This document shows positions 4,141-51,548 of a DNA stretch of 64,000 nucleotides, piece by piece. The position numbers and the translations under genes are program-made. This DNA comes from Nilaparvata lugens. Lineage: Eukaryota > Arthropoda > Insecta > Hemiptera > Delphacidae. The stretch covers positions 66,125,114 to 66,189,113 of the forward strand of contig NC_052504.1 in the NCBI RefSeq assembly GCF_014356525.2, read 5' to 3'. The stretch's first letter is position 1, and every line of letters begins with the position of its first letter. The notes beneath the pieces are model-generated. The model saw only the letters and a list, made by a program, of their open reading frames with translations, was not told where the DNA came from and ran no database searches.

Positions 4141-4907
4141 TTATTTAAGATTTCCATTCTTATCGGATTTAACTGATAAGGAGCTTTCCTTACGGGCTGA
4201 TTGTCTATCAGACGAATTTCATATTCTATTACGTTCGATTTACCTAGTTTATGGGTAAGAACATCATCAAATTGATTTAATACTTTGTTTAATTCTACTT
4301 TCTGCGAAGAGCTTAAATCGTCCAATTCCACATCAGTACCAATTCTATTCATTTTCTTTAGTAATTCCAACCTGTGATTTTTTTCAAAAGAAAATTTGAA
4401 TTGCGGTTTAAATCCAAAGAAATACCTATTATTGAATAAATCAGGAACTAATTTGGAATAATGAATAAAATCACAACCTAAAACAATAGGAATTGACAAA
4501 TCATCATGAACAAAGAAACGAAATTTCCAACTGAAGTTTTCAATTTTTATTTTTAATAGAACTGACTCTTTCAACAGTAATTTACTTTTATTCGCAGTAA
4601 CACAATGCTGAATATCCTCTTGAATAAGCAGATTACCATTATCCCGTAATATTTCAGTAAAAACTTTCCTTGAAATGATACTATAATCAGAACCAGAATC
4701 AATCAATGCAATAGAACTGACACAGTTATTTCCTAACTCACATACTATTAAAGGAGTGATTTTATTAATCAAAGCTCTAGTCTTTAACTGATTAAATTTC
4801 TTTTGCTTTTTTCTTTTTATTTTATTTTTCATTTTCTGATTTTTGTCAGTATATTTTGATTGAATTGATTTCTTCTTACCATTAGAAAAAGTATCACTAC
4901 ATTTCAA
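4122..4907 (-). CDS. Gypsy protease and start of reverse transcriptase
   Basis: A 261-codon frame. A Lys-rich N-terminus leads into a retropepsin-like domain with the active-site LIDSGSDYSI, about 65 residues in, and a downstream VLGCDFI motif. The C-terminal part (RKAPYQLNPIRME) is the conserved entry into reverse transcriptase. The frame is lost at 4122, where the RT continues in a different frame. The protease releases the mature Gag and Pol parts. It lies about 95 bp downstream of the gag frame. Confidence 0.85.
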   Translation of the reverse strand: MKCSDTFSNGKKKSIQSKYTDKNQKMKNKIKRKKQKKFNQLKTRALINKITPLIVCELGNNCVSSIALIDSGSDYSIISRKVFTEILRDNGNLLIQEDIQHCVTANKSKLLLKESVLLKIKIENFSWKFRFFVHDDLSIPIVLGCDFIHYSKLVPDLFNNRYFFGFKPQFKFSFEKNHRLELLKKMNRIGTDVELDDLSSSQKVELNKVLNQFDDVLTHKLGKSNVIEYEIRLIDNQPVRKAPYQLNPIRMEILNKKFKKC

Positions 4908-5002
4908 GGTATTAATTCCGTTTTCTTTATTGAATTTTTGATTGTATTTGGTGTTTTGAAATTTTCTTTTACTGTATATTTTCTTTTTATACTGTTTCCC
5001 AG

Positions 5003-6642
5003 CTAGTCATGCTTTTTTATTTTCACCAGAGTTTGCATAATGTCCACTTTCATTACATTTAAATAACGTATTTTAGATAGATCTCTAGTGAAATTATTAT
5101 TAGATCTTTGGTGATTCTGATTATGATTTCTCGAATTACTGCTTGTACCTCTGAAATTTGAATTATTCATGTTGGATCTACATGACTGAGCTAGATGACC
5201 TACTTTGTTGCATTTGTCACAACGTCTTTGAGCTAATTCAACATTCATTGGAGATTTTTGATTATTTTTATTAGTATTAAAATTGTATTTATTTCTTTCT
5301 AAATCCCCATATTGAATATTTTGAGATACTACTGAGATGGAAGTTAAGTCATTAAAACTAGTTGGTTTGGATTGGAAAACTAGTCTATTTCTTTCCTCTG
5401 GATTCAACCCTGAGCAAATATTATTGACTATGTCATCCTCAGATTTTTCTAATCTCAGTAGTTTATTAGCGTCTTTGATTGACACAATGTAAGCAGACAA
5501 GGGTTCACCAGCCCTTTGTAAACGATAATAGTGGTCTCTTTCAATGATTGAAATCAATCTAGACGGAATAAAATGTTGCAGAATATCCTTATGAAATTCA
5601 TCAAAACTCTTATTTGTACTCATAGCTAAATTCAATCGATCGGCGAGAGGCCCTACAACAGAAGAGTGAATGATATGGAAAAGTTGCTGATCTAATAAGT
5701 TCGATCGTTCTTTTATTTTCAAACATATTTCAATGAATTTCAACAAACTATCAACATTCAATCCGTCAGTATTCGGAAGTTCCTTCATCAGACCTTCGAT
5801 AGGATTTGATAATTTATTATACAAATTACCAAATAAAGGTGAAGACAAGTTGGCTGCAAGGTTTACCCTATTAGTATTGAAATCACTACCGAATACAGTC
5901 CTACCCAAGTTTTCATTTATTGTAGCATGTACCTGTTCTACCATAGAGACAGTATTACTATTATTTATATTTTCAAAATCAGTAACTTGAATATCAGGAT
6001 TGGTAACATTTGTTTGTGAATACTGAGTAACATTTTGTTCCATATTACTTGTACTAGGAATTGGCACAATAAAGCGATTTACTGTATTAGTATGAAGTTT
6101 AGTATTCGAATCGTGTGTGGGATTATTCATTTTTGAATCAGGTGTACTAAGACTGCTTTGTTTTTCAAAATGAGGCAAACTAGATCTACTAAAGCATTCA
6201 CACAAGTCGATCAATTAGTAAAAGTAGCCTGAGCTAATACAATAGACTCATCAATACCCTTAATTAGATTTTGGTCATTTGCTTCTTTAGCATAAGTTAA
6301 TAATTGAACAATTCGATTGAGAATATGTAGAAAAATGGATAACGCTTTATGAATGTTTACCTTTTTATCAGGAATACTCATAGAAAGAATTCTCTCCAAG
6401 TATTCATCTTCCCCTGTCAATAAATCAAGGATTTTTTTTATAGCAATTTTACTAGACTCATCATCGTAAATAATTCGTGCAATTTTTGGGTCTGGATTGC
6501 TAACTAATGCTCGATACTTTCCCCTTAAAGTGTCTACATCATTGTCAATAACTGTATCTGTAGGTACTCCCAATGTTTCAAGTTCGAAAAGTAAATTCTC
6601 TTTAGTAACAAAATTAGGATTGAATTTTCTAATAGGAATCAA
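5003..6642 (-). pseudogene. Gypsy gag, in two frames
   Basis: Two adjoining open frames, 6211-6642 (143 codons) and 5003-6214 (403 codons). The second has a long capsid-like region, with IERDHYYRLQRAGEPLSAYI typical of retrotransposon Gag. It is followed by a nucleocapsid CCHC knuckle (CDKCNKVGHLAQSC) and an Asn/Arg-rich tail. The frames meet in a 4-base overlap at 6211-6214, and the second frame has no ATG at the join, so I read this as one gag split by a frame change. Gag would form the cytoplasmic virus-like particle and bind element RNA. Confidence 0.8.
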
Positions 6643-7836
6643 ATTGAAATTGAAGCACTCTTCAACTAATTTTTTAACATCCCAATAATTAATTATTTTA
6701 GATTACATAGATGCTACTTTATTCGGTGAACCCATATTATCATTTTCTTAAATAAATTATTAATATGATTATATAATACTTATAATTCGAGATCATTTAT
6801 GATGAATAATATTTGATTTTGTATTTTAATTTTAACCTGAATCCTCCCCACCATCAATGAAAGAAGAAAGGATAAGAACAGCCGAGACCATCACACATCA
6901 TTCAATATTATTGATAAATCAATGAAAGAGTTTGCAAGCAAACCTCGCAGAGTAAGGCGCAGTTGAAATGTTACCTCAGTTTACCGCAGTTGAAATTAAT
7001 CTTTGAGATGGGGAAGGAAATAATCCTCCGAATATTTAAATCAATTAATTGAATATATAGTTCAATATATTAACTAAAATATTCCATTTATTTAATTTCC
7101 AACCCCTTCTAAGTAGCAACATTTATAATTGAATGATATGACAGCTCAACAATTCAAGATTTACCCCATTCATTACTTGTCATTGATGATTGTTAGGCAT
7201 ATTCAATAATCAACAATAAGATTGTAATCATGTTTGCAATTTAATATACATAATAGATCAAATAAATAGAATTTCCAAAAAAATAAACAAAATTTAAATC
7301 AAGTAATTACAAATTATTTATTATCCTGTCCCATTTTTTTTTTGCGAAGTAGGTGCCTGTGAATTTTCCATAAATTAATATTGGTTGTTTCGTAAATACC
7401 TGGTGTATTGAAGTGAGGAGGCCTCCATACACTTTATTCAAATTTTTCACTGCACAAGAAGTTCTTGAAGTATCCTTTTTACGGCGAATTTAGATCTTTT
7501 CTGGAAATATTGGTTTCCTTGTGATGAGTTGGTCAGCAAGGATTCAGCTTCCATGGCCATAACTAAGACATCCTGTGATACTACGAGTCTATGAGTCTAC
7601 GAGTCTACAAGTCTATGACCGCTGTACAGCGGAAATTGTAGAAATTACTATGGCTACATATGTGATGAATGAGGTTTTCAACAAATATAAATAAATTGCC
7701 ATAACTTAGGCCAGCTAGAATGAATACTCAATTAAATTTTCGGATATGATTACTTTTCATTTTTTTTTTTTTTTTAATAACAAACAAGAAAATTTACATA
7801 TTTAAAAAGGAAATAAAAAAAAATAAAGAAAATAAT
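6643..7836 (-). other. Gypsy leader and unresolved part of the 5' LTR
   Basis: Noncoding, AT-rich. The inner edge of the right LTR cannot be fixed by alignment because its partner runs off the window. A weak primer-binding candidate lies near 6838-6855, where the minus strand reads TGGTGGGGAGGATTC after a CA. If correct, the LTR would be about 1.4 kb and the leader about 200 bp. I could not match it to a specific tRNA. A short imperfect tandem of the decamer-like unit GAGTCTA(C/T) lies at 7580-7620. Confidence 0.4.
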
Positions 7837-8559: not shown

Positions 8560-9362
8560 CCTGATGACTCTTCATCATCCTTATTCTCTTCTGAGGAGGG
8601 GGTTTTTGAGCTCATCTTGAGCAGTGTAAAACACTGCAAGTTAGATAATTTCTTAAAACAACCTCTAACATAGCCCTTCTGTTACATTGAGATTATCAAA
8701 AGCAATTCTGTACATCATTTTTTCTTCATCACCATCACAAGATAATGATATTTCAAGTGTTTTGCTTCTGAGGAGGCCAACTATCGCTGTCTAGATTTGA
8801 ACTCATGCTACAGATTCAAAAATTAATTCACGCTGTTTATATAAATCCTTATGACTTTCTGACTCTTTTTGTATTTATCTTTTTTCATGAGGTACATAAC
8901 TGTTACAGCTGTGATTGGGATTTTTTAAACATCGAGGTGGCTTCAATATCTAGCAGGTATTATTTTTCCTTATTCATCTTCTGAGGAGGGGGTTTTTGAC
9001 CTCTTTGATCAGATTGTAAAACACTGCAAGTAGATAATTTCTTAAAAGCACCTCTAACTAGGCCTTCTGTTACATTGAGAGTATCCAAAAATAAATTCTT
9101 GTACATCATTTTCTTCACACCATCACAAGATAATGAATATTTACAAGTGTTTTGACTTCTTGAGGATCCAACTATCGTCTGTCTAGATTTGGAACTCAAT
9201 GCTACATGATTCAAAATGAATTCACGCTGTTTATATAAATCCTTCAGATTTCTGAACTCTTTTTGTATTTATCTTTTTTCATGAGGTACATAACTGTTAC
9301 AGCTGTGATTGGGATTTTTTAAACATCGAGGTGGCTTCAATATCTAGCAGGTATTATTTTTC
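8560..9362. repeat. Roughly 400-bp tandem duplication beside the gap, probable assembly artefact
   Basis: 8560-8970 and 8971-9362 are two versions of the same sequence. Their right-hand 100 bases or so are identical. Toward the gap, the first version carries many small insertions and deletions relative to the second. That gradient of errors at a contig end is expected of uncorrected long-read sequence, not of biological divergence. Confidence 0.75.
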
Positions 9363-10765
9363 CTTTTCCAGTTTGATATTCTTCACCCTTGAGACGTTCA
9401 TTTGCTGTATTTCTCGTTTCCACTTTGTGGGATCAGATTTCTTTTTTTTTCGAGGTTGATTATTTTTTGTTATGATATTGGAATCATCTTCATCACTCGT
9501 AAGTAACTATGGCGCTCTGCTCTGGTTGAAGCTTTTTTCTTGCTGAAATTAGTGATGAAATTGACAAATGCGTTTTACTTTGTTTCTTGGTTGGAGTATC
9601 TGTTACAATGTCTTCATCAGTATCTGAAAAAAATGTTCCAGTATAAAGTATGAATTAATAACAGGAATTTTAAAAGGTAATTGTTAAGTTAATAGCCTAA
9701 ATTTTCCTGTTTTTAGTTGTGAGTTGAACCTTCTTGAAATGAGGATGACCTCAACCTTCTGATTGTTCAAAAACTTTTCTGTGAGAAGTTCAAGAACTCA
9801 TAATTATTATCTACAGTATAGCTGAATTTTATTGTTTTGCAAAATGAATCTCTTTTCTCACACCATGTGTTATAATTATATGAGCAAATTTGAGAATTAT
9901 TTATAACCATTCGAAGTTGTATGGTCTATCGCAACTGTAGGGTGAAAGTCAAGTCTCAGGGTGAAGAGCTTGACCCTATATTGAAATGAATTTGCCAAGT
10001 ATGATCAGATTGGATCATAGAGTTTTTTTTATCAAACCTGATACCTCTGACCCCCATATTTATGAACTAACCTAACCTACCCAATCAGAGTAGTAGAAGA
10101 AGATTTAATCTGGGGGAAAAACGTTCGTCTGGTGCCTATTTCTCTAAATAACAAATTTAATATTATAAGCTTAATATACCCTACCTGTAGAACTACTTGG
10201 TGCATTCACTGCCACTGTCTGCGGCAAATAAATCTTCTTCTTCATCATCGGTATCAACAAGATTTTTCTCATCTATAACATAAGTAATGTGAATTATAAG
10301 TAAATGATCAAGGTAGATAGTTATTATTATCAGGACAACACAATAATGGGTAATTTATTTGCTTTTAAATTAACAGCTAAAAATGCTTAGCTAAAAATAC
10401 CAAAATTATTTAGGCATAGCTGAAGCCATCAGCCAACAATATATTACAGTATATTTCCTTGACAATTAAGTATCAAGAAACCCAGTTTTATTTATTTTAA
10501 TTAAGGACTTGAAACATCAGAATGGTTTCTGGACTTTGAATTGTCATTATTCTCATTGCATACCGTAATTTTATTGTTGCTATTAGAATATACTTGAACT
10601 GGAATGGCCCACAAAAAGGTCTCACCAAACTTAATTTAATGTATAGTAAACCTTAAAGTATGAATGAAACTTACCTGCAATTTCTTGTTCTTTTTGATTG
10701 ATAGATTTTGATTCCTTAATCAACTCGTGAGTCCTGGGTCGAAATATTGTTCCTCACTAAATAAT
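8960..10765 (-). pseudogene. DQ-family transposase-like gene, fragment A (several exons)
   Basis: Minus-strand exons with good splice sites. One at about 10676-10760 ends at a GTAAGT donor. An acidic one at about 10190-10275 reads DTDDEEEDLF. Another at about 9490-9628 starts after an AG and reads DTDEDIVTDT. A Lys-rich segment at about 9365-9480 contains SDPTKWKREIQ. An exon at 8960-9270 contains DLYKQREFILNHV, then YKNLFLDTLNVTEGLVR. The acidic exons, the KW segment and the 'FL.TL..(S/T)E..VR' motif match the fuller copies at 37-40 kb and 56-59 kb. The catalytic half is missing, lost in or beyond the gap. Frame shifts are present. It is a decayed relative; what the live protein does is inferred only from its relatives. 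Confidence 0.6.
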
Positions 10766-13713: not shown

Positions 13714-15871
13714 CTAGTAGTCTACTATTTTAGCACCAAAACCAAGTTGCTGCACCTCATCTGTGAACACATTATTCCTAAATGTATCATCCCCACCATA
13801 TATAATAAAGTCATGTATTATACCAGAGATGCCGGCTCTGACATACAATTTGAATCCCCACTTTGTTGGCTTATTTTTCATGTACTGGCGTCTAGAGCCA
13901 GCATGGGTACCCTTATAGGGGATCATCATTTCATCAATAGAGTTTTTTTTCTCCTGCTCTAATGAAACGCATTTTTGTCTTATGTGCTCTAGTACAGGTC
14001 TAATCTTGTAATAACGATCATCATTCATGTGTTCATTATTAGAAAAATGTAAAAACCTCCTAATACTTTGGTATCGTTTCAATGGCATTATATTGGCTAT
14101 TTTATCAAATCTGAGATTACCTGACCAGTAATCGGTATAGCTGGGCATTTGGACAACCCCCATAAGTAACTCTATGGCCAGAAAATCCATTATATCATAC
14201 TTATTTATACCTAGACATTTACCGGACTCTTGTGTAGAGTATAAATTAGTATTCTCTACTATCAAATCAATAAGAGCATCATCAAAGAAATATTTAAAAT
14301 ATTGATACGGTGTCTCATGTCTCTCAGGATGTGTGAACTCAGGATCAGTAATGGCGGCTTCACCTTCAAAGTGTGTTTTTTTCCACCTGAAATGAACAGT
14401 AAATTTCCCAAATTAATCCAATTTGTTTTATTAGTAAAATTCTCAGAAAAAACAATAATATTATACACATGAACAATAACTTGTATTGCAGAAATATTAT
14501 TGATTGTTCTTTTTATTAGTCAAACAAGGCTGCTTCTACATTACAAGTGACTGGCCAAGTATATAATAGTACAATATTATTGTTTCCACTGCAGTTCAAA
14601 AAAAAAAATATATATATATATATCAACAGCAAAGAAAATAATGTTGAGTGTTGTATTGATAATTCTTTTTTTGTACTCACTTGAATTGTTTTTGAGTCAG
14701 TTTCTTTGCTGTCTTTGGATGAGATATCCTTTTCTGCAAATGTGTCCTTCCCTCCTTGGAAGTCCTTCCAATGGATGATGCACGTGTTGTTCTGGAAGGC
14801 GGAGTCGTGATTCTGGACACTCCAGGTTGTTGTTCGTCTCTATCAACAGATGGTGATGGTTGCTCACTTTTATTACTGGACTGTTGTTCATCTGTGACAA
14901 CAGATAATGGTGATTGTACTGTTGTAGCAGGTGAATTGCAGGATACTCCAGGAAGCGCACTATGCATCATTTCAGCAGTTGGAGATGAGCCTGTACCTGA
15001 TTGATTCACATCGAATGTCCATATCTCCATAGGAGCATCTGAAATGTCTTCAAATATGAGCTGTTCATCAACTGGGTCAAGGATGGTGAGACTACTGTGC
15101 TCTTCTAAATTCTTTTGTGGACCATCAGCCAATGTTGTTTCATCATCAGATGATTCTTCTGCCTCTGAATCAGCAAATGCTTTTGGAACAAGAGACATTA
15201 TATAGTCTACTCTCCTTTCTGGAATCTGGAACAAAAAAAATGGATTTTATTAGGCTAATTTCTATTATAAAACAATATTAATTGAGTCTATTCTATCCAT
15301 ACTGTATCAACAATGTATTGCCATTCATGGAAATTATTATGCAAAATGTCAATACAATAAGACTAAACTAACTAGGATTGGGTGGCTCAGCTCGTAACAG
15401 TGTCTATCTAGAATAAATCATCGTCAGCAACATCTAGAATAAATTATAACATAAATGAACACGTTATGATATTATAATTGAGTGAATTCTAATACAGTTA
15501 TAATTTATTTTGGTTGTAGATTAGTTTTCCTTTAAATATTCAAGCTATATAGAACTGAGCAATGTATTATCAGTGATACATAGCAATAAGAAAGTGATCA
15601 TCTATGAGTCGAGCAGTGTATCAAATGTGATACTATGCTTGAAGGAGTTATGTCTCTCATCACTTGGCAATGTATTACTGGTGATACGATAATTTCAATC
15701 TTCAAAAAATGATACTAAAATCAATTGAAGTTTTTATTTAAACATATGTATACAATCTCTGTCATTTTTAGATCAAATTCTGATCAATTAAACTTGAAAT
15801 AAAACGTGTAACTAATGAAATTTGAAATAATTTACCTTGTCACGCAACACGTTTTTCCGCTTGGCAGACAT
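13714..15871 (-). CDS. piggyBac transposase, three exons, C-terminal third missing
   Basis: Exons 15871-15836, 15225-14681 and 14386-13714 join in frame through GT-AG introns (donors GTAAAT and GTGAGT) to give about 417 aa; full piggyBac transposases are usually 550-600 aa. Start: MSAKRKNVL. Residues 13 to about 190 are acidic, then Ser/Thr/Pro-rich linker. From about 200 comes the transposase domain: RYQSIRRFLHFSNN, then the first catalytic Asp in SIDEMMIPYKG, then KPTKWGFKLYVRA. The frame stops right after GFGAKIVDY, before the segments with the second and third catalytic Asp and the C-terminal Cys-rich domain. I found no exon for these further left. So it is a family member, probably catalytically dead; a repressor or DNA-binding role is possible but unproven. 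Confidence 0.85.
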
Positions 15872-27472: not shown

Positions 27473-27938
27473 ATACTAGCAAGAACCCGTGCTTCGCAAG
27501 GATCTATTTTAGAACTTGACAAAATGAAAATTTGACGTAATGGAATTTTGAAGAATTGAGAATAGGCCTATAACCATCCTTGGTTAATTAAGAATCTATA
27601 AGCAGAATTTCAAGTTAATTAGTCCAGTATTTCAGACGTGATGATGCTTCAAACATAATTTTCCTATTCCGTACGTGCATAAGCCAGCTCTTTACTTTAT
27701 ATAATTATTATAGATATAGTTAACGACTGCAAGAGATAGGACTGTGGAACAGAATAGTGGTGAAACTATGATAGCGCCAGAAGTGTCTCAAACACAATAG
27801 TAGGTACTACATGAACTTTTTGAAAGTGATTTGAAAAAATGTTAAAACAACAGAACTGAATCCTTATCATTCTACCTTCATTTAGAGAGGCTTTTGTTTG
27901 AGCCGAATGGAGTAGTGAGAAAAGGATGGTTGATTGAC

Positions 27939-28200
27939 ATCAACTCAGTTGATGGAACAACTCAGGAGTACTATCAAATCGGTTGATGGATCATCTCAGG
28001 AGTACTATCAACTCAGTTGATGGATCAACTCAGGAGTACTATCAAATCGGTTGAACTATCATTCCACCAGTACTAGGTAGGTTCTAGAACATCAATTCAC
28101 TTGAACCAACAAATAGAAAGAAGCTTGCATGCTTTGAAAGTAGGTTCAACTCACTTGAATGATCAACAAGAATGAACCTTGCATCGTTTGAAAGTAAGTA
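27939..28200 (+). repeat. Left repeat arm of the cluster
   Basis: Contains several copies of ACTCAGGAGTACTATCAA and of the near-palindrome ATCAACTCAGTTGAT. Then come CATCAATTCACTTGAACCAA, AAATAGAAAGAAGCTTGCAT and AGGTTCAACTCACTTGAATG. The same blocks appear in the right arm in reverse order and orientation. Confidence 0.85.
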
Positions 28201-28242
28201 TGTGTCAAGAATAGCATGCAATCATTCGGCTGTTCAACATTA

Positions 28243-28397
28243 ACGAGCTGTTACATAAGTCGTGCAAATAGAAGACCCATTATAGTTATGCAACTTTGAA
28301 TGCACTTTTATACTGAACAACATCATTATTTAACGAGCACTTACGTAAGGCCCATTACTATAGTGCAGTTTATCATGCAATCTTCAATGCACTTTTC
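28243..28397 (+). repeat. Imperfect direct repeat upstream of the TATA box
   Basis: 28243-28310 and 28332-28397 share TAACGAGC..TTAC, GCCCATTA-like, TTATGCA and CAATGCACTTTT blocks at about 89-bp spacing. The segment lies in a roughly 450-bp insert present only in the left arm and just upstream of the promoter, so a regulatory role is possible. Confidence 0.6.
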
Positions 28398-28506
28398 CCA
28401 AGCTAATAATGGAAAGTTTCACATAATTATTTGATAGAGCAAGAAAGAATAAGGATAAGAAAGAGATGTGATGCTTCCCCCATTTATCTCCACCAGCCAA
28501 TTTTAG

Positions 28507-28514
28507 TATAAAAG
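28507..28514 (+). promoter_or_regulatory. TATA box of the left-side gene
   Basis: TATAAAAG, about 270 bp before the start codon. A 5' exon seems to end at a GTAAGT donor at 28622 (exon end ACAAA). Candidate acceptors are the AGs at 28659 and 28718, so the intron lies in the 5' untranslated region. Confidence 0.65.
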
Positions 28515-28658
28515 CAAGTATCAGTTAACATCTACTATATAGCCACTATCATCTTCTGTTGACACCAAGACTGCCTACTCTGCTACTATTTGCCAGCACT
28601 ATCACACAATATCCTAACAAAGTAAGTTTATTTTTTATATTTTCTCTGTCTGAAAACA

Positions 28659-28717
28659 GCAATTTCTGCTGGATTTGACCAGTTTCAAGAACAATGAAAC
28701 CATTTTATGTAGATACA
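28659..28717. repeat. Second inverted-repeat block, left copy
   Basis: Begins CAGCAATTTCTGCTGGATTT and ends GTAGATAC. It is the inverse of 31823-31884, where the block lies directly next to the repeat arm; here it is separated from its arm by the promoter-bearing insert. Confidence 0.85.
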
Positions 28718-28780
28718 GAGAAACTGTATCTGTACAAGTATATACTTGTTAACTCTTGAGATAACATTTTCACGCAAACT

Positions 28781-29350
28781 ATGAAGAGTATCAAGGATAA
28801 TATCAACAAGAGGGCAATGCATCATTGCCCACCGGGACTTGCAATGAAATCCACTGTCATGTTTGATGACACTTGCATACTGCTAAAATCTTTCTTCAAG
28901 TTGGATAAGGGTAGAATGGCTGCTATTGTTAATCTTGAGAAGGTACCCAACTGGAGGGATAAGGATGTGAAGATTGTGTTGAGTGTTCTCAATCAAGACC
29001 AATACTACAAGTGTGATTTTATATGTGGACAACAATCTAAATGTCTACTGGGACTGGGTCAAAAGGAGATTAAATTTGCAGGATTTACAAAAATTGAGAG
29101 TACAGGACATGTGAAACGATTCAGGCTGGAGGATGGAACATCTGGTGATTCAGCTTTTGAGATTAGCATCTACAAGGCTATACGCAGACCTATGCCACTG
29201 CCATCTACTGGGGGATATGATGAAGTTGATGGACCATGCATTGTTCGTGAAAGGAATAAGCCATCAGTTGAGCGTTATGTCACCAACAATGATTATAGCC
29301 GAGGAGAAAGACTTCTTCAGCTGTATATTCTGTTCAATACTGAAGATTAA
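28781..29350 (+). CDS. Unidentified intact 189-aa protein of the cluster
   Basis: I do not recognise this protein. It starts at the first ATG after the presumed 5'-UTR intron and is uninterrupted for 189 codons. It is mixed alpha/beta in character, with no signal peptide or membrane segment, basic at the N-terminus (MKSIKDNINKRAMHHC). It has scattered cysteines, including a CDFICGQQSKC cluster near residues 79-89, and a Gly/Pro-rich segment (PMPLPSTGGYDEVDG) near 150. The Lys/Arg-rich first half followed by a compact domain would suit a nucleic-acid-binding or structural protein, but that is a guess. It has its own TATA box and a poly(A) signal 14 bp after the stop, and is the only plus-strand gene of the cluster. 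Confidence 0.75.
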   Translation: MKSIKDNINKRAMHHCPPGLAMKSTVMFDDTCILLKSFFKLDKGRMAAIVNLEKVPNWRDKDVKIVLSVLNQDQYYKCDFICGQQSKCLLGLGQKEIKFAGFTKIESTGHVKRFRLEDGTSGDSAFEISIYKAIRRPMPLPSTGGYDEVDGPCIVRERNKPSVERYVTNNDYSRGERLLQLYILFNTED

Positions 29351-29363
29351 TTATATGTTTGTC

Positions 29364-29369
29364 AATAAA
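29364..29369 (+). terminator. Poly(A) signal of the 189-aa gene
   Basis: AATAAA 13-14 bp after the stop codon, followed by T/G-rich sequence. Confidence 0.7.
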
Positions 29370-29496
29370 TACTATGTATAATGAGCCATTTGTTATTATT
29401 GACCATCCTACTTCCTCATTTTCAGTCACTTTTCAGTCACTGTTCACTTACAGCTCATATAGGTAAGAAATCACCTTACTATACTTTCAACGAAGT

Positions 29497-29636
29497 ACTG
29501 GTGAAATGATAGTTCAACCGATTTGATAGTACTCCTGAGTTGATCCATCAACCGAGTTGATCCAAGCTTCTTTCTATTTGTTGGTTCAAGTGAATTGATA
29601 GTTCAACCGATTTGATAGTACTCCTGAGTTGGAGGC
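29497..29636 (-). repeat. Internal copy of the cluster's repeat unit
   Basis: Same blocks and orientation as the right arm (AGTACTGGTGAAATGATAGT, TTGATAGTACTCCTGAGTTG twice). It lies between the 3' ends of the plus- and minus-strand genes, so it separates the two transcription units. Confidence 0.85.
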
Positions 29637-29846
29637 AACAAGTTCATCAGATCATGATGTTGGCGGAAGTCATGATTAACCAACTTCCTGCATAAAGATA
29701 AGTTTATCAGAGTAGGATGATTCCTATTGTATTGAATGACTAACAGTATAGGATGTAATTTATGCTTTATCTCACACCTTGTGCTTACTCTAGAAGTTGA
29801 AGGTTGTATGGAATAAAATGTGCAACAATTGTGGTATTACTTGATG

Positions 29847-29852
29847 TTTATT
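29847..29852 (-). terminator. Poly(A) signal of the minus-strand genes
   Basis: AATAAA on the minus strand, about 50 bp beyond the stop of the 29900 gene. Confidence 0.65.
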
Positions 29853-29899
29853 TACAGTGTATGCATGAAAATATATATATAGTGCACAAAGATAATATT

Positions 29900-30181
29900 T
29901 CAGTCCAATATATCAAGAACTATCCAGTGATACAAATCTCCTAGTCGATTGCTTATTTCACAAAATCCTCTGCCAAACATGAATTTCAAGATGACTGCTC
30001 CCTCGCATAGATCGGTGCAGCAGCTTGATACTTCAGCATCGTGGAAGATGTATGTCAATGTCTTCAAGAAGTTTTGAGCCGTTCCAAACGGTTCAGGCAG
30101 GTCCTTATCTCCAAAGTTTAGGAATGGTTGTATGATCCATTGGTTGCTGGTTACTAGTAGACAGTCTCCACACTCACGCAT
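29900..30181 (-). CDS. Unidentified small Cys-containing protein, paralogue of the 31500 gene
   Basis: Starting at the ATG at 30181 the frame gives 93 aa (MRECGDCLLV...). It shares a pattern with the 31500-31754 product: C.C near the N-terminus, a Trp, then EPF....NFL..(L/M)T.IF..A, a Cys and VIL.F....C.E. The identity of the family is unknown. Its ATG overlaps the stop of the upstream mucin-like gene (ATGCGTGA), which could allow reinitiation on one mRNA. Alternatively, an AG at about 30197 (TGCAG) could start it as a separate exon. It is followed by the poly(A) signal at 29847. Confidence 0.65.
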   Translation of the reverse strand: MRECGDCLLVTSNQWIIQPFLNFGDKDLPEPFGTAQNFLKTLTYIFHDAEVSSCCTDLCEGAVILKFMFGRGFCEISNRLGDLYHWIVLDILD

Positions 30182-30785
30182 GTCTACTTGCTCCACTGCA
30201 GGCTGATGTTGTTACTGGGTCTGGCACAGTGGTAGGAGTTGTAGTAGCAGCAGTACTAGTTGGAGTAGTACTAGCGGGAGTTGTAGTGCTAGCAGGAGTT
30301 GTAGTACTAGCTTGAGTAGTTGTGATGATAGCAGCAAGAGTTGTTGTAGCAGTTGCAGTACTCACTGGAGTAGTAATAACAATGGATGCTTGTTCTTCAC
30401 AGTACGGTGCACAGACCTCAACTGACCTTACAACAACCACTTCCAGAAAGTCCAACAATGTGAATGTAGGGTGAAGACAGGTGTGCAGATTGTATACACA
30501 GTGGACTCGTTTGCAGAGAGATCCCACCACAGCTCGTTCCCCAGCCATATTCATGTACCAGTCTCTGATATCGATGTACATTTGATCGATTGCTGACTGA
30601 TTACCACATAGAGCAGGAATCCCTGATGTTAGCAGGCACTGTTGCATATGACGGATGTTTGATGTATCCAGTCCGTGTTCCCTTGAAGTGAGAAATTCCT
30701 GTGTCCTGTACTTTGGATCCAATGCACTAGCACTGAGTACTAGCACAAGGTAGAGCGCTGCTTGGTACATGCTTGTAGCCACCAT
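30174..30785 (-). CDS. Secreted mucin-like protein with Cys-rich ectodomain
   Basis: 203 aa if it starts at the ATG at 30785. An earlier in-frame ATG at 30839 lies upstream of a good splice acceptor (TTTCAG near 30812) and is probably intronic. Residues 1-21 form a signal peptide (MVATSMYQAALYLVLVLSAS). A domain with about ten cysteines follows, including SLCKRVHCVYNLHTC and VEVCAPYCEEQ. From about residue 135 there is a Thr/Ala/Pro-rich stalk of roughly 55 residues (repeated TTTPAST), the kind that carries O-glycans. There is no C-terminal membrane anchor. It is likely secreted or virion/peritrophic-surface-like; I recognise no family. Confidence 0.7.
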   Translation of the reverse strand: MVATSMYQAALYLVLVLSASALDPKYRTQEFLTSREHGLDTSNIRHMQQCLLTSGIPALCGNQSAIDQMYIDIRDWYMNMAGERAVVGSLCKRVHCVYNLHTCLHPTFTLLDFLEVVVVRSVEVCAPYCEEQASIVITTPVSTATATTTLAAIITTTQASTTTPASTTTPASTTPTSTAATTTPTTVPDPVTTSACSGASRHA

Positions 30786-30879
30786 GATTGAAGAATGATG
30801 ATCGATAGCTGAAACATGAAAACTTTCATGTTGAATCATATTTCAACAAAAGATGGTTTACAAACAATTACACCTACAC

Positions 30880-31031
30880 TCTACCTACCTACCTACCTAC
30901 ATTCCTTAACCAAACATCTTACATCCCCATATATACAAAGAAGATTTGAACCCAAGTCCTTATGAATAATTCAAACCCGAGTCCTCTAGAATGGAAAGCA
31001 GAAGTGCTAACCACTACACCACGGTGGATAT
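30880..31031 (-). mobile_element. tRNA-derived SINE
   Basis: On the minus strand it starts near 31030 with a pol III A-box-like ACCGTGGTGTAGTGGTTAGC, followed by B-box-like GGGTTTGAATT and, in a partial duplication, GGGTTCAAATC. It ends in a (GTAG)n tail at 30882-30901. It lies in the presumed intron between the 31500 gene and the mucin-like gene. Confidence 0.75.
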
Positions 31032-31096
31032 CTATTTACTTGTTGTTTATTATGTATACTTTAACAACTATATCCAAGCTCATTGCAGCTTCTAGT

Positions 31097-31131
31097 GAGC
31101 TGTAAGTGAACAGTGACTGAACAGTGACTGA
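31097..31131. repeat. Third inverted-repeat block, right copy
   Basis: GTAAGTGAACAGTGACTGAA and flanking bases are the inverse of 29422-29457. The block contains a tandem AGTGACTGA. The two copies enclose the mucin-like and 29900 genes. Confidence 0.7.
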
Positions 31132-31272
31132 TCAGTAATTGAACTGACTGACTGACCACTGAGTGGACAACCCCCAACCATGCTCCTGCATGACCAACTT
31201 GAGCTAGAAAGATAGGTCCCCCATTGATGCCTCTAATGCTGGTGGGCGTGGCCATTATTCTCATTTAGGATA

Positions 31273-31460
31273 ATGATGAGGAGACATCTTACTTAAAGTC
31301 TCCCACACAAAATATTCATCAAAAATAGGTCTTTTAAAATTCTAAATAATATTTATTCTGTCTCAAACTGAATGATCAACATGATGTGTGAGGAGACATC
31401 TTAAAGTCCCCCACACAAAGTATTCATCAAAATGGATCTTTTAAAATAATAACCAACAAT
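31273..31460. repeat. Tandem repeat of about 115 bp in the minus-strand intron
   Basis: GAGGAGACATCTTA, CCCACACAAA, TATTCATCAAAA and GATCTTTTAAAAT/GGTCTTTTAAAAT-type blocks occur twice, about 115 bp apart. Noncoding. Confidence 0.65.
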
Positions 31461-31499
31461 AATAATAAACAATATAGATTGTACTTACTTTGCTATTCA

Positions 31500-31754
31500 C
31501 TAAAAACTGCACTGCACTGCCATTTCACAGTAACATTGGCTGTATGGAAAAGTCAGAATAACCATTTGATCATTGTTGCAGAGGTAAATTGAAGCATGTG
31601 GGAAAATCAAAGTCATTGAATCAAGAAAGTTCTCCAAAGATTTGAATGGTTCACAATTTTCTTTTCTATACTCAAACAGTAACTCCACAGTCCACCTGGT
31701 GCTCATGGTAAAGATGCAGGAACATGAAGATTCAGAGTTATCTGCTGGCTCCAT
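31500..31754 (-). CDS. Unidentified 84-aa protein, paralogue of the 29900 gene
   Basis: Intact 84 codons starting MEPADNSESSC, with CSC near residue 11, EPFKSLENFL, LIFPHASIYLC, VILTFPY and CYCEMA. These align position by position with the 29900-30181 product, so the cluster contains a duplicated gene. No signal peptide. A GTAAGT donor (exon end AGCAAA) lies a few bases after the stop, matching the exon end ACAAA of the left gene, so this ORF may be the first cistron of a spliced minus-strand transcript leading to the mucin-like gene. Confidence 0.65.
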   Translation of the reverse strand: MEPADNSESSCSCIFTMSTRWTVELLFEYRKENCEPFKSLENFLDSMTLIFPHASIYLCNNDQMVILTFPYSQCYCEMAVQCSF

Positions 31755-31822
31755 TGCAAATGGGTGGTACTATTGATGAATGAATATCTGTTTCAATGTT
31801 ACTGGTATCCAACACTGGAATT

Positions 31823-31884
31823 AATGTATCTACATAAAATGGTTTCATTGTTCTTGAAACTGGTCAAATCCAGCAGAAATTGCT
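31823..31884. repeat. Second inverted-repeat block, right copy
   Basis: Inverse of 28659-28717, directly next to the right arm. It lies just upstream of the 31500 gene, where the right-side promoter should be; I see no convincing TATA box. Confidence 0.8.
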
Positions 31885-31892
31885 GGTTGTTC

Positions 31893-32291
31893 ATTCTTGT
31901 TGTTCATTCAAGTGAGTTGAACCTACTTTCGAAAAATGCAAGCTTCTTTCTATTTGCTGGTTCAAGTAAATTGATAGTTCAACCGATTTGATAGTACTCC
32001 TGAGTTGATCCATCAACTGAGTTGATCCAAGCTTCTTTCTATTTGTTGATTCAAGTGAATTGATGTTCTAGAACCTACCTTGAAGTACTGGTGAAATGAT
32101 AGTTCAACCAATTTGATAGTACTCCTGATTTGATCCATCAACTGAGTTGATCCAAGCTTCTTTCTATTTGTTGGTTCAAGTAAATTGATGTTCTAGAACC
32201 TACCTTAAAGTACTGGTGGAATGATAGTTCAACCGATTTGATAGTACTCCTGAGTTGATCCATCAACTGAGTTGAAAGTACTCCTGAGTTG
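31893..32291 (-). repeat. Right repeat arm of the cluster
   Basis: Three consecutive units beginning AAGCTTCTTTCTATTTG at 31939, 32029 and 32154. The middle one is 125 bp; the first is 90 bp because a 35-bp block containing GTTCTAGAACCTACC is missing. Each contains CATCAACTGAGTTGAT and GATAGTACTCCTGAGTTGAT. Read on the minus strand the blocks match the left arm. Confidence 0.88.
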
Positions 32292-32300
32292 GGCCATTCC

Positions 32301-32954
32301 TCAGGTGCAAAATAAATATTAGTTTTACAGAAGAAAGCAGTCAGAATAATAAGCAATGCAGATTACCTAGATCATTGTAAACCTCTATTCAAGGAAAATT
32401 CAATATTAACAGTCTTCAATGAATTTTTGTATCAGTGCTTGAAAGAGATAAAATTGAGGGAAAATGTACTGACGGTTGCCAGTGACATTCACAATTATCT
32501 GACTAGGGCCAGTGGAGATCTGCATGTACGTAGGTGCAGACTCAGCAAATCTCTTTCGAGTTTTCCAATAGTGGGGATAAAATTTTTCAACCTTTTACCA
32601 GCCTCCTTCTGTACCCTTCCCCTTCCTGTATTCCTCAGACACGTAAGAAAATGGCTCATAGACAATCCATTCTACTCTTTAGAGGAATTCAGGACAGTGG
32701 TAGGTAGAATAAATTATTAATGTCAACTATTACATGAAATAGTTAATTATAACGTAGCCCTATTATGGGTGAACTATTGAATGCTATTAATTGATATTGT
32801 TGTCGTTACTCATTTTAAGGATTTTTTATTATGTATTTTGACCTAATTATGATTTTATTATGTATCGTAATTTTATAAAATATTTTGTGACGTAGCCTTG
32901 TGTACTACTGTATCGCCAGGCTAAATAAATTGATTGATTGATTGATTGATTGAA
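32301..32954 (+). mobile_element. 5'-truncated non-LTR retrotransposon, 3' end
   Basis: An open frame at 32427-32720 (about 97 codons) has the usual C-terminal signature of insect jockey/CR1-type reverse transcriptases: GIKFFNLLPAS, then FLRHVRKWLIDNPFYSLEEF. It is followed by a short 3' UTR and the tandem tail (ATTG)n at about 32929-32954, as in elements ending in short tandem repeats. The 5' truncation point abuts the right arm of the 28-32 kb cluster. Confidence 0.8.
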
Positions 32955-43528: not shown

Positions 43529-44806
43529 TCAATGATGATGGCTAATGGTGAGGAATGCATCCACTGAAAAATCTTGAATCTTAGAAACATGGTTAGCAAC
43601 AAACGTCTGCCACCTAGATGGAGAAGCACCAATCCAGTGTAGGACTATAATGGAGTCGGAAAAAGCCAACACTTGATTGATCTCACAACGCTCTCGAATA
43701 ATGGAAATGGTTGAGTTAAGGAGGTCACACAAAAGTACTGCTGCACATAGTTCCAGACGAGGGATGCTGACAGTCTGAGATGGCGCCACCTTTGATTTAC
43801 CACATAGCAATGAAATTTGATGAGGACACTCACCATTTTGAGTTCTCAAATAGATGAAAGCTCCATACCCTACCTCTGAGGCATCACAGAAACCAATTAG
43901 GGTGATTACAGAATCAGGAGACAATCCAACATATCTAGGGATCGACAATTCAGATAGAAGCGCAAATTCTTTCTGACAATTTTCCCACAAGATCCGAATT
44001 TCAATAGGAGCCACATCGTCCCATTCCAACTTCAAACTCCATAATCGCTTAATTAGGCATTTCAAAAAAAATATTACAGGAGCCAGGAGACCAAGAAGAT
44101 TGAATATTCTCACTACCATTGAAAGTATATTACGTTTAGTAGCCTCTTTCTGCTCTTGATGTACAATAAACCGAAAAATATCAGCACTAGGTTTCCACTC
44201 AAGACCCAAAACAGCCAATGAGTTACCAGTTTCAAAGTCTTTTCTCAATGAGGATTTTTCATCATCAGAAAATTGAGTCAATAATTCGGGTGAATTTGAC
44301 ATCCATTTAGTCAATTTAAAACTATTCTCTCCAAATAATTCTTTGGACTGACTATAAAGCTGACTAGCTTCTTGTAATGATGGAACAGAAGTAACTAAGT
44401 CATCCATGTACATATGAACCGGGAGATGCTTTTGTGCTACTGGAAAATTCCTACCTTCCTCCTGTACCAACTGACGAACAGTTCGAAGTGCCAAATAAGG
44501 CGAAGAGGTAATGCCAAACACTACACAATTCAATTCATAGATTTCAATTGGGTCAACTGGCGAAAATCTCCATAATATTCTTTGATATTTCCGACAAATT
44601 TCTTCAACCATTATCATTCGATACATTTTTGAAATATCTGCCACCAAAGTGTAGAAAAATAATCTGAAATTCACCAGTAATATGAAAATATCAGTCTGCA
44701 ATTTCGGACCAACATGCAGGATATCATTGAGTGAAGAATCACTACTGGTTTTTGCGCTAGCATCGAAAACTATTCTCACAGGAGTGCTAGAGCTACGAGA
44801 TTTCAC
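43529..44806 (-). CDS. BEL/Pao reverse transcriptase and RNase H
   Basis: A 425-codon frame. It starts with STPVRIVFDASAKTSS, the Pao RT entry, then LVADISKMYRMI, the region around VVFGITSSPYLA, and the catalytic box HMYMDDLVTSV near residue 155. LNLLGLLAPV-like connection sequence and an RNase H region follow (GFCDASEVGYGAF, SIPRLELCAAV, FSDSIIVLHWI). RNase H continues past the stop in another frame at 43430-43520 (NPADCLSRGL). Family: Pao RT with the fused RNase H. It is cut off from its upstream part by a one-base frame change at about 44810-44830. Confidence 0.9.
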   Translation of the reverse strand: MKSRSSSTPVRIVFDASAKTSSDSSLNDILHVGPKLQTDIFILLVNFRLFFYTLVADISKMYRMIMVEEICRKYQRILWRFSPVDPIEIYELNCVVFGITSSPYLALRTVRQLVQEEGRNFPVAQKHLPVHMYMDDLVTSVPSLQEASQLYSQSKELFGENSFKLTKWMSNSPELLTQFSDDEKSSLRKDFETGNSLAVLGLEWKPSADIFRFIVHQEQKEATKRNILSMVVRIFNLLGLLAPVIFFLKCLIKRLWSLKLEWDDVAPIEIRILWENCQKEFALLSELSIPRYVGLSPDSVITLIGFCDASEVGYGAFIYLRTQNGECPHQISLLCGKSKVAPSQTVSIPRLELCAAVLLCDLLNSTISIIRERCEINQVLAFSDSIIVLHWIGASPSRWQTFVANHVSKIQDFSVDAFLTISHHH

Positions 44807-45660
44807 TATAGCATGATGAGGTGTATATAGTAACCTTGTCTATCATTCTGATTTTTTATCAATGACATGTGGCCTTGACGCAAATAATCGAGCATAATTC
44901 CATTATATGAAATTCGGGCATCTTCTGAACAAGCTAGACGTTTTTCCAAATTCAACAATCTCTTTTTTGCCATGAAAAACAAGTCACCAAGACAATCTGG
45001 TGAATTTACAAATGGTAAGGCAACAACAAAACGACCAGAGTCCAAACGGCAAACTGAGGATTTAAACTGGTCTTCACAATAAATTTCTTTTAGAGTGGGC
45101 AAACTCCCCAATTTGGGACACTCCTCAAGTTCCCAGAACCGACTGATCAAACTATCCAACGGTGCAGAAGCTAGTAGACAATTATTGTCTTCAGAATTAG
45201 AATCAGAAATTTTTGAAAGTGGGGCTCGACCCATCAGAATTGCTCCCAAGACGCTATGTACAATTTTAACTGAACCTACTCCTTCTTCGAATTGACTAGG
45301 TCTCAACAAAATAGGTATTATTTCAGCTCCCAGTATGCCATCAACATTAGCAGGTATGTGGAATTTATCATCAGCCAGTTTCAATTTTTTCAAGTGAGAT
45401 AATTGAGAAATATCCACTTTATTTGAAGACAATTTATCGATAATACGATCAACAACTAGTGACTGAACTGAGAACGACTTGTTTTGTTCAGTCCTTGATG
45501 AAAACTTAAATGCTGTTTGACCACGCACAACAGTTGTACCACCCCCAAAGCCAGTAACTGAAGCTTGCAAACGACTAACAGGCAAACCCAAACGACGACA
45601 AACTCAAGTTGTTATAAAATGATGCTGACTTCCAGTGTCAAGAGAAATGCAAATTACACT
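44806..45660 (-). pseudogene. BEL/Pao aspartic protease (A17-type) and RT N-terminus
   Basis: LDTGSQHHFIT, with the active-site DTG, lies at about 45620-45650 and is separated by a TGA at about 45605 from the long frame 44806-45591. That frame has the protease body and linker (HIPANVDGILGAEIIP, HSVLGAILMGR) and the SRFWELEE block that always precedes Pao RT. It ends where RT continues in another frame. Confidence 0.85.
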
Positions 45661-45803
45661 GCTTACCTCTATGAACGACAGTGACTACAGCAGTGGACAA
45701 TAAAACAGTAGATCCCTTGGGTTGATTATTACCACTCATCATGCTGGAACAACAGCTAAGGATCGGTTCTTCAGTATTTCCAGTTGTATCACTTGCTTCA
45801 GAT

Positions 45804-46075
45804 TTATTTTTTTCTAAAATCAAAATGTAAAAGTGAGTTGTGTGGTTTATTACATTGATTGTAATTCAATGAGCTACGACAATCACTCACAGCGTGATTT
45901 TTCAACAAACATCTAAAACAATAGGATTTAGCCTTCACAAAACTGAATCGCTCCCACGGCGATAATTTCAGGAACGATCGACAATCAGTCAACTTATGCG
46001 ATCCTGAATTGCATTTCAAACAACGGTCATTTGATTTTTTATTTTTATCAAATGAATGAACTGTAAAAGTCTTAG
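45804..46075 (-). pseudogene. BEL/Pao gag remnant with two zinc knuckles
   Basis: CLKCNSGSHKLTDC and CFRCLLKNHAVSDC are two CCHC knuckles 23 residues apart, as in Pao Gag. The upstream part is replaced by the MITE at 46078. A frame change near 45810-45823 separates it from the protease. Confidence 0.8.
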
Positions 46076-46077
46076 AA

Positions 46078-46345
46078 TTGGACGAATTTTTCGTAGGGTC
46101 CCAATTGACAGAATCCCAAACGACTGAAACGCTGTATTTTTTCAAACGGCCGAAAACTACTTTTTTCCCAATTGGCAGAACGCTTTCTGTCATTTGCGAC
46201 AAACTAGAGAAACTTTCTGTCGTTTGGGAAACCTATCACTTTCGGCCATTAGGGACTCTCAACACTTTCGGCTCAATGCAACAAACAACGTTTTCTGTCA
46301 ATTGGGAAAATTCGTAAAGTTTTCTATTATTTGGGATTCGGCTGG
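46078..46345. mobile_element. MITE inserted in BEL/Pao gag
   Basis: The end sequences GACGAATTTTTCGTAGGG / CCCAATTGACAGAA and TTCTGTCAATTGGGAAAATT are inverted. Inside, CGTTTGGGA/TCCCAAACG and CTTTCGGCC/CGGCCGAAA blocks recur in both orientations. About 260 bp, no coding capacity of its own. Confidence 0.6.
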
Positions 46346-48464: not shown

Positions 48465-48835
48465 AGTTGGAGGTGATGCAATGGGATAAATATAAATACC
48501 TGGGCAACGTGATATCATCAGAGAGCAATTCCAAAAGAGAAATCACGAGTAGAATTGGACAGGCCAGGCAGGCAACACAAACATTGAATTACATATTTTG
48601 GTCCAAAAATATTACAAAACTTACACCAATATTAGAATTTATCATTCCATTGTACAGAGTATATTGCTCTAAGACTCTGAAACTTGGGAATCAACAAAAC
48701 GAGACTCTCAAAGAATAAATGCTGTGGAAATGGATTTCTTGCGCCGAAGTTGTTGTGTTTCAAGGATGAATCGAGTGAGGAATACAGAGATAAGGAGATA
48801 AGAAGGAGAGGTAGACCGCCTGAAATGTGAAACAA
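48465..48835 (+). pseudogene. Endonuclease/RT retrotransposon C-terminal fragment
   Basis: The plus strand encodes KYKYLGNVISSESNSKREI, RIGQARQATQTLNYIFWSKN and, in a shifted frame, VEMDFLRRSCCVSRMNRVRN. These are the conserved 'YLG..I...G....EI..RI..A' and 'L R....R' parts that follow the polymerase domain in RTE/L2-like non-LTR elements common in insects. Frameshifted near 48680-48720 and truncated on both sides. Confidence 0.75.
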
Positions 48836-48954
48836 ACAGGTGTATACTTGTATGATGAATAGAAATCCGGTCCAGGGAGGCTGGAATAATCTGAATAAAT
48901 AGCAGATGGGATGCGAAAAATGGCTGGAGCTGAAGAATAAACTCGTATATATGT

Positions 48955-51548
48955 ATATATAGAATAAATTTTATTTTTAGTATTGGAACACCCTGCAGTA
49001 TCCCGTCAAGGGGCCTCCTACATACGGGGCAAATAATGGTTTGCGGCAGAACACCCCTGTAGTTGACTGTGCGGCGAGGAACCAGCACACAGGTGCCACA
49101 CAGTTCAAAATGCCCACAAGGCTGCGTCATATAGGAGCGCTTGTGGACCGCGCAGACGACGCATATCAAGTCGCCTTCGCCTGCGACAGCATAATCTGTG
49201 TTAACTGCTACTCTAGCCAGGTACGCCATCTGCCTCTGGCTCAGTTGTTCGGCCTCGGCTTGCTGCAAACATATTTGACGGTAAAGCAAATGACATTTAA
49301 TTAGGTTAGCATAATTTCAATCAAACTCTAATAAGTGATAAAACATCTATTCACTGGACTCCATTTGTATTCTTTAAATGCAACATATATTATGATCGTA
49401 AAGAGATAGACTATGCCACAAATATTTTGTAATTGCATGATAGAATCAAAATTCAAATCTTGAAATATAATTTTTAATCTAATCACAAATATAATTTGGG
49501 CTTTCTATTTGAAAGTCAATTAACAAAACTGAAATGAAATAAAAACACATTAATCTTACTCGCAATCTTCACTAGAGTTCCGTTCGGTATTCTACAATCT
49601 ATACGCGAGTATTATATATCTGGTTGCTTATATTTTATTGTTACTAGAGAATAGTACACTCACGTCTGCGGCCATGGGTTGTTTATGAAATCAAGGTTTC
49701 CTCCTCCACCTCTCTCCCCAATTGCTCTACCTCCTCTTCCTCGTCCTTCACCACTCCTTGCACCACCTCTTCCTCTTCTTGGCTAGCAACAGATAAATAT
49801 ATTATTATAAAACGAAAATCCAAATTGAATGCAATTCAAACGTAGATCACCCCGAAGACTTCTGCAACTGCAAATATTGACAACAGGGTAAATAGTCGTC
49901 GGGGTGATTTACAGCATTTAATTTGGAATTCATTTAATAATAAATATCTCAGTAATTTTCATCTGTAGCAACAACATCTTGAATATTGATTGTATAAGTA
50001 TCTCGTGCTCTAGACAAGAGTATCATTCATTTTATAATGGAATATTATGTATTCATCAAAAGTAATACCGGTGATTTATGCAATGTAAATGCATAAACAG
50101 CAGCTATAATAGCAGCTAATGCATAATAACAGCAATTGATGACTATGATCGACATAATAGTTGGTACTAGTGACAGTAGTGACTGTGTTATTACAATTTA
50201 AAAAAAAAAAACTAAAAGATAACCTTATTTTGGACTATGTTACCTATTTATCAAAATTTGTGAGAGAAACACTTTTGGGCTGAGCCTGTTGTTTCTCTCA
50301 ATTTCAAAATAATTAGGCGACTGGAAAAATATTTTCGACATAATGTAATTGAATGATTCCACAATAAGCCATTATGGAAATGATTTGGGGCCATGACCAT
50401 TGTGGAAATATTAGTGCGAAGTATTTTCTGTTAACAAAGATTGATCACAGATATTATACTATAATTTTTTATATTATCACTTTATATAGTTTTTATTTGA
50501 ATTTACCTTCTGGAATTCATATTTTCAGAACTTCGATCATGAAATTGTGATCATGTGTATTAGTTGTTTAACCCTCAATAACAGTAATCTATGAACAAGA
50601 GAATAAATAAATGAACAATAATTATCATTGCCTTACTTGATTTTGAGGGACAACAGCAGGAAAGTTGTTGTTCTGATGAATCTGCAAATGTCAAAATATT
50701 CATTAAAATTTCTTCTTATTGGAATGCTAAGTACTAAATTACAATCAATCTTCTCAACTTGAGTTATATAAGATAAGCGTATTCTTCATTATATCATAAC
50801 ATCGTATTTTATATTCTAAAATAGCTGAGTACAAAGGTTTGCTGTGCAAGGGATATTCAAATGCCATAAACGACAAAAAAGCACAGAAGTGGCGGAAGTG
50901 GCAGAAGTGGAAAAAGTGGTTGCTGCAATCCGGCGTATAACTACCTATTCAGTTTAAGCAGAACATCGTCTTCATCCATCAAAACTGCGAATAAATAGTT
51001 TCCTCTACTTCGTTTGTGATAAAATTTTTCTAAACAAATTAAAAAAATGTTTAATGGTACCGTATTTAAATATTCAGATACTATTTGTACGTTTTGTACA
51101 AACCGAGCACTATCAATAGAAAAATGAACAATGTTATAATTTTAGTTTCTCTCCCGTACATGTGGAGAAGGGTTAGGGTAAGCAACATGAAATATCGTGA
51201 TCATTCAATCAACCGTAATGTACCTGTTCTGGTTGAGGCATAATGGGCTCTGCTGCCATTACTTCAGCCGGTTGGTCCGCCTGGGGCTGCTCCACCATGC
51301 AGCCGACCATTCAGTTCACTCGTTAGGTGAGATACTCGGCTGAGGAACTCGGCAACAGTATATTGTTGTTGCCTGAGATGAATAGTCGCCTCAAAAATTA
51401 CAGCATTCTGACGACGATATGCCCTTGATAGCGGCCGTACGTGCTGTACGCCACCCACCATGCGGCTATACTCAAGCCACTGTGACATCTCAATGTCTCT
51501 GAGATGATCTGGGAAACCATCAATCTTCATTGAATTCAACCTCATATC
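48955..51548 (-). pseudogene. RING-finger gene, several exons, frame not fully continuous
   Basis: Exon-like blocks on the minus strand. 51548-51224 has YRRQNAVIFEATIHLRQQQY and EFLSRVSHL, then an EQPQADQPAEV Gln/Glu-rich end in another frame, and ends at CAG before GTACAT. 50681-50637 is 15 codons (IHQNNNFPAVVPQNQ). 49782-49664 is RGG-rich (PRRGRGGARSGEGRGRGG). 49262 to about 48955 contains a RING finger: C-x2-C-x11-C-x-H-x3-C-x2-C...CPVC. RING domains recruit E2 enzymes for ubiquitin transfer. The exon 2 to 3 phase fits, but the first exon needs one frame change and the RING exon is out of phase with the RGG exon as I splice it. It is therefore either decayed or mis-assembled, or my junctions are wrong. 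Confidence 0.6.

Follow-up and report, generated by a model that had tools for sequence, protein, structure and literature searches.

We analysed a stretch of 64,000 nucleotides (the window) from the planthopper Nilaparvata lugens (assembly GCF_014356525.2, contig NC_052504.1, positions 66,125,114 to 66,189,113), in which a first-pass annotation had marked positions 27939 to 32291 as a cluster of intact genes between inverted repeats. This module carries four open reading frames (ORFs), ORF1 reading in from the left and ORF3, ORF2 and ORF4 from the right (Table 1), and very probably derives from a Maverick/Polinton-type provirus of N. lugens, left as a non-autonomous relic by internal deletion. 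The inverted arms at the edges are real, as are the nested inverted pairs: 27986–28074 pairs with 32209–32297 (89 nt, 96%), 28091–28177 with 31889–31975 (93%) and 28654–28717 with 31825–31888 (98%), and an additional arm unit lies in the middle of the module. The arms contain subrepeats of 17, 34 and 125 bp. The left edge at 27939 was wrong: comparison with loci fetched for their similarity to the left block places the true left end at 27911, with AGTAGT as first letters, and the right arm stops ∼29 bases short of the complete right end of a relative (L013). We sought a direct duplication around 27939/32297 and found none; those positions are not true borders. All four frames are present, but the module cannot be called intact, as ORF1 and the right end are truncated. 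By eye, we spotted TATAAAAG at 28507–28514 and GTAAGT near 28622 in the block 28178–28653, as well as AATAAA-type signals in the module.

Judged by sequence comparison, genes and arms belong to a high-copy family of repeats scattered through the N. lugens genome, because ORF1 has at least 154 matches in it (a lower bound, 150 of 417 candidates having been scored) and near-identical copies of ORF2 (94–97%) occur on three contigs (68.8, 23.2 and 46.5 Mb). By hand count ∼70 of the listed matches span ORF1 residues 1–189 at ≥93% identity, and in most of these the frame is ∼301 amino acids (aa) long compared with 196 in the window (stops read through and counted; some with one stop). The relatives thus carry a 301-codon stop-to-stop frame of which ∼108 codons are lost in the window, with 189 remaining from the first ATG. 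Matches to the left block (query 28180–28780) that cover at least 258 query bases number 22 at other places (hand count; 40 of 58 candidates scored), and the block is accompanied by ORF1 and a right arm at C7:541–557 kb, C4:41.097–41.122 Mb and C10:46.0 Mb. The suggestion of a virus-derived or transposon-borne gene module is borne out by this co-occurrence of genes and arms in other copies: ORF1 and ORF2 are multi-copy and not a single-copy host gene family, and the arm block, where it recurs, terminates larger gene-bearing elements.

The ends of the relatives are well defined. Nine of ten fetched left-block loci show a sharp boundary at window position 27911, all starting with AGTAGT; they represent eight places and seven different flanks (L032 is the same place as L039, and the flanks of L035 and L036 are identical). 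In the tenth locus, L037, similarity begins later and an AGTAGT motif lies nearby. Perfect 6-bp target duplications were present in all three relatives read at both ends: the L012 insertion (6,988 bp, duplication TCCTCA), the L009/L042 insertion (C3:48705654–48713945, 8,292 bp, ACCGCT) and the C10 insertion (C10:45999342–46013064, 13,723 bp, GGTAAG). Both ends of L012 and of the C10 element carry the motif 5′-(AGT)2 // (ACT)2-3′. The right ends of seven loci of a capsid-bearing type (see below) read AGTAGT five times and AGTAGA twice in a motif scan presupposing AGTAG; for six of these seven no left end could be located within the short pieces fetched. An (AGT)2-type end motif and a 6-bp target duplication are described for vertebrate Mavericks (PMC8097293). 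The AGTAGT ends and 6-bp duplications are marks of Maverick/Polinton elements.

These ends also bear on two other explanations. A fold-back (FB/NOF-like, Mutator-like) transposon would consist of host genes that it has captured, framed by arms of tandem subrepeats and moved by a foreign transposase, and the 17-, 34- and 125-bp units resemble those of Drosophila FB elements. However, FB and Mutator-like elements make target duplications of 9 bp whereas all three insertions show 6 bp, and the AGTAGT ends as well as the double-jelly-roll capsid gene of the relatives render this explanation highly improbable. A host cluster of secreted mucin-like genes, into which repeats inserted by chance, is equally hard to credit: although close ORF2 copies carry the annotation ‘integumentary mucin C.1-like’, they are spread over three contigs, ORF1 has its many matches, and in L012 and the C10 element ORF1 and ORF2 lie together between duplicated target sites.

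The relatives fall into two element types. In L009 a 201-aa, a 404-aa and a 342-aa frame are followed by ORF1 and then by an ORF2-like gene on the opposite strand. The 404-aa frame is a double-jelly-roll capsid protein (PF21738, E 1.4e-78), whose gene is absent from the window; all 11 capsid-type loci have a match to it, which is full-length and stop-free in five (L009, L011, L019, L020, L021). Directly upstream, in a penton-like position, lies the 201-aa frame, which is without Pfam match. In the other type, ORF1 is preceded by a dUTPase gene (E 1.5e-29), a frame of 270 aa and polymerase-like fragments, and followed by ORF2, ORF3 and ORF4. In larger relatives the left block stands ahead of this dUTPase-to-polymerase part. 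Matches to the dUTPase were confined to L039, L040 and L041, which contain or border on elements of the replication type; N-terminal and exonuclease-like polymerase fragments occur in L010, L013, L015, L039 and L041. These fragments are probably from a polymerase gene; the sole Pfam match above cut-off in the polymerase-like frame is Endonuclease_7 (E 6.2e-7). The ORF1 cassette, which begins at a TATA-like motif, is 96.8% identical between L009 and L012 over 998 bp, and outside it the two types share merely short or diverged stretches. Tandem repeats of ∼384 bp stand upstream of ORF1 (turned to +) in L012 (1529–2538) and L015 (968–2714). BEL/Pao-like frames were recognized by eye inside the C7 and C4 relatives (L039 2663–6586, L049 3654–8000).

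The gene content likewise bears on the proposal of a small ambisense DNA virus. Inward-facing genes between inverted repeats would suit a remnant of a densovirus or bidnavirus, and bidnaviruses possess a protein-primed polymerase and two segments. Yet six module frames gave no parvovirus-type match (NS1 helicase, capsid) in Pfam, and the relatives encode a double-jelly-roll capsid protein and a dUTPase and insert with a 6-bp duplication. Ends, duplications and capsid gene being of the Maverick/Polinton kind, we see no support for the densovirus proposal and consider such a remnant very unlikely.

Within the Maverick/Polinton reading, the origin of the window copy can be followed along the alignment. 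Positions 27911–28766 are collinear with L039 262–1115 (90%); from 28767 on, the window runs as ORF1 of L012 and other relatives, and over 28767–31893 block identities with L010, L012, L013 and L015 are 95.7–97.6%. The window copy is very probably a deletion derivative of the replication-gene element type. A deletion would have fused the left leader to ORF1 at about its codon 108, removing the part from dUTPase to polymerase, and the right terminus would have been lost, so that the copy is probably immobile. As a single locus it is an ordinary relic. Elements of this kind would spread in the form of linear DNA, with a protein-primed polymerase to copy it and an integrase to insert it.

Table 1. 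Features of the module (positions in the window; aa, amino acids)
Feature	Position	Strand	Remarks
Left terminal arm	27911..28177	+	First letters AGTAGTGAGAAAAGG; holds 34-bp repeat array; start common to relatives
Promoter-like and first-exon-like block	28178..28653	+	In this copy in the left arm only; in relatives partly at left ends of larger elements
Leader common to left ends of larger elements	28654..28766	+	Partly inverted at 31825-31888
ORF1 remnant	28767..29350	+	Last ∼193 codons of 301-codon frame; deletion joint 28766/28767; open frame 28781-29350
Internal arm unit, between ORF1 and ORF3	29494..29631	.	Present too in L012, L013
ORF3, 93 aa	29900..30181	-	Open over these positions; overlaps ORF2 end; stop-free in 4/4 close relatives
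ORF2, 203 aa	30174..30785	-	Open frame spans 30174-30839
SINE-like (short interspersed nuclear element-like) stretch	30860..31044	-	tRNA A- and B-box-like motifs, by eye
ORF4, 84 aa	31500..31754	-	Open over these positions; paralogue of ORF3
Inverted copy of left leader	31825..31888	-	In front of ORF4
Right arm with 125-bp repeats	31889..32297	-	Without ∼29 terminal bases of complete right end

The genes on the right side of the module form fewer units than their frames suggest. ORF2 has a signal-peptide-like start (by eye), a helical domain and a Thr-rich tail, with paralogues at ∼50% and relatives in Laodelphax. The start of ORF3 lies a few bases ahead of the ORF2 stop in the window, L010, L012, L013 and L015; in the diverged L009, L011 and L014 the corresponding alignment position, close to where the ORF2-like frame ends, also holds an ATG, and in L017 and L021 this ATG is altered. 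The transcript of ORF2 and ORF3 is likely dicistronic or alternatively spliced, and either splicing or reinitiation could account for the arrangement; a +1 frameshift joining the two was considered and not adopted. ORF4 shares 21 of 72 residues with ORF3, and its leader is a copy from the left arm. The leader frame before it (31738–31848, minus strand) has LDTSNI and ends in NGASR, and since both recur in ORF2-like proteins, ORF4 probably represents the last part of an ORF2/ORF3 copy that has shrunk. Three frames do read in from the right as described, but they amount to at most two related gene units because ORF2 and ORF3 have a few bases in common. The ratio of nonsynonymous to synonymous differences per site (pN/pS; uncorrected, with few changes in each comparison) is 0.13–0.26 for ORF3 in four of four close copies and 0.13–0.80 for ORF1 against 14 close copies (L009–L022). 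ORF2 and ORF3 look like accessory viral proteins; ORF2 would be secreted, its helical domain carried by a Thr-rich stalk, perhaps at the particle surface. In a predicted Laodelphax protein, an ORF2-like domain is fused to a stretch that is chromodomain-like (PF00385, 20.3 bits, short of the cut-off of 25.1) and may resemble the tail of a Maverick integrase.

Several results weigh against a Maverick/Polinton relic. No target duplication is demonstrable for the window copy, because its right end is missing. In the polymerase-like frames no catalytic domain was read and the identification is tentative; no uninterrupted polymerase frame was seen in four elements as far as read (L010; L040+L013; L041+L015; L039), and stops interrupt the fragments of L010, L013 and L039. 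An RVE integrase, ATPase or protease was not noticed among the listed frames, no targeted search having been made. ORF2 contains stop codons in two of four close copies (L010, L012), with pN/pS of 0.27–0.74, and for ORF4 constraint is not evident (0.47, 1.00 and 1.42 in three close copies, the value for the fourth being undefined; L010 has a stop). The structure model of ORF1 is unusable (predicted local distance difference test score, pLDDT, 39.5), and that of ORF2 (pLDDT 63.4) gave no fold match at E ≤ 0.001 in PDB or among viral folds. Six module frames had no Pfam match above cut-off, and four searched in PHROGs had none at E 1. The module had been called undescribed and intact, which is partly right: none of the frames tested has a family match above cut-off, but ORF1 and the right end of this copy are cut short.

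Further searches added no relatives. Sequence searches of solved structures gave nothing useful (best E 0.05), no relative was confirmed when viral contigs were scanned with ORF1, P0002, A2, P0011, the capsid protein and a fragment of polymerase-like sequence, and a phage search with ORF1 and one prokaryote-genome scan found none. Two matches below cut-off were not used: AcMNPV_Orf17 on module frames (E 0.051) and DUF3587 on the 301-aa frame (3.6e-4, 20.5 bits, cut-off 25).

Compared with Maverick/Polinton elements, including adintovirus-like animal proviruses, the family shares (AGT)2 ends, terminal inverted repeats, 6-bp duplications and, in the relatives, a double-jelly-roll capsid gene and polymerase-like gene fragments. 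It differs in size, the three bounded relatives measuring 7.0, 8.3 and 13.7 kb compared with 15–20 kb (PMC4028283), in its dUTPase, and in that no single element was found to hold both capsid and replication genes; the window copy lacks both sets. Like non-autonomous deletion derivatives of DNA transposons it exists in several copies that retain ends and lost internal genes, but unlike these it still has frames that code and show low pN/pS. No paper on non-autonomous Polinton/Maverick elements came up in a phrase search of an open-licence library.

The surroundings of the module had been described as decayed transposon DNA throughout. Ten flanking frames were scanned: some are retroelement or transposase frames, one is a RING-finger frame and five were unmatched at E 0.01. 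The stretches 1640–6702, 13717–14412 and 43532–46232 (minus strand) contain a long terminal repeat (LTR) retrotransposon (RNase H, integrase), a piggyBac-like transposase (DDE_Tnp_1_7) and BEL/Pao fragments, with parts unmatched. Frame 32316–32717 (plus strand), without Pfam match, resembles the C-terminus of a reverse transcriptase of a long interspersed nuclear element, followed by a TTGA repeat tail. The RING-finger frame at 48711–49316 (minus strand; PF13920, 29.7 bits, cut-off 27) may be an E3 ligase gene, either of the host or captured. A 394-bp unit forms two tandem copies, 90% alike, at 8578–9365. For the SINE-like stretch, ARAGORN found no tRNA; an Rfam scan at the gathering cut-off was also empty.

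We compiled a gene matrix of 20 fetched loci, the pieces L039, L040, L041 and L049 and the window (L050 and L051 were left out). It comprises 11 capsid-type loci (L009, L011, L014, L016–L022, L027), loci with replication-type genes (L010, L013, L015), the deletion derivative L012 and five distant loci at ∼50% identity. Penton-like and capsid matches occur in all 11 capsid-type loci and in none of the four other close loci (L010, L012, L013, L015), and dUTPase, 270-aa and polymerase-like frames in none of the 11, except for a weak partial match of L018 to a polymerase-like fragment (43% over 29%), which speaks against a clean split. This match apart, capsid and replication genes were not seen side by side in any of the 15 close loci. 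Among the distant loci L023 and L026 have penton-like and capsid matches and L024, L025 and L028 neither, L024 holding a homologue of the 342-aa frame. The loci were picked by ORF1 and are 9.9 kb wide, so that a longer element with both gene sets could escape.

It is conceivable, if on balance doubtful, that the genome of planthopper Mavericks is divided between two elements, one with penton-like, capsid and 342-aa genes and the other with dUTPase, 270-aa and polymerase genes, each with its own (AGT)2 termini and duplications and both keeping the ORF1 cassette and an ORF2-like gene. One complete insertion of each type has been bounded, which argues for independent mobility of each part. ORF1 would then serve a function that both parts need, e.g. 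packaging or co-mobilization, and the two would spread as partners. Bidnaviruses also have a two-part genome, a protein-primed polymerase and terminal repeats; here, in contrast, the capsid is of the double-jelly-roll kind, integration makes 6-bp duplications and the shared part is an internal gene instead of the termini. Alternatively, there may be two families of deletion derivatives, each descended from its own full Maverick, with ORF1 exchanged between these ancestors. Should the split prove true of the whole genome, the planthopper would harbour Mavericks whose capsid genes and replication genes integrate as separate elements, an intermediate between transposon, satellite and multipartite virus. 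A number of planthopper proteins now labelled ‘uncharacterized’ or ‘mucin-like’ would be explained as accessory genes of virus-like elements and not as host genes.

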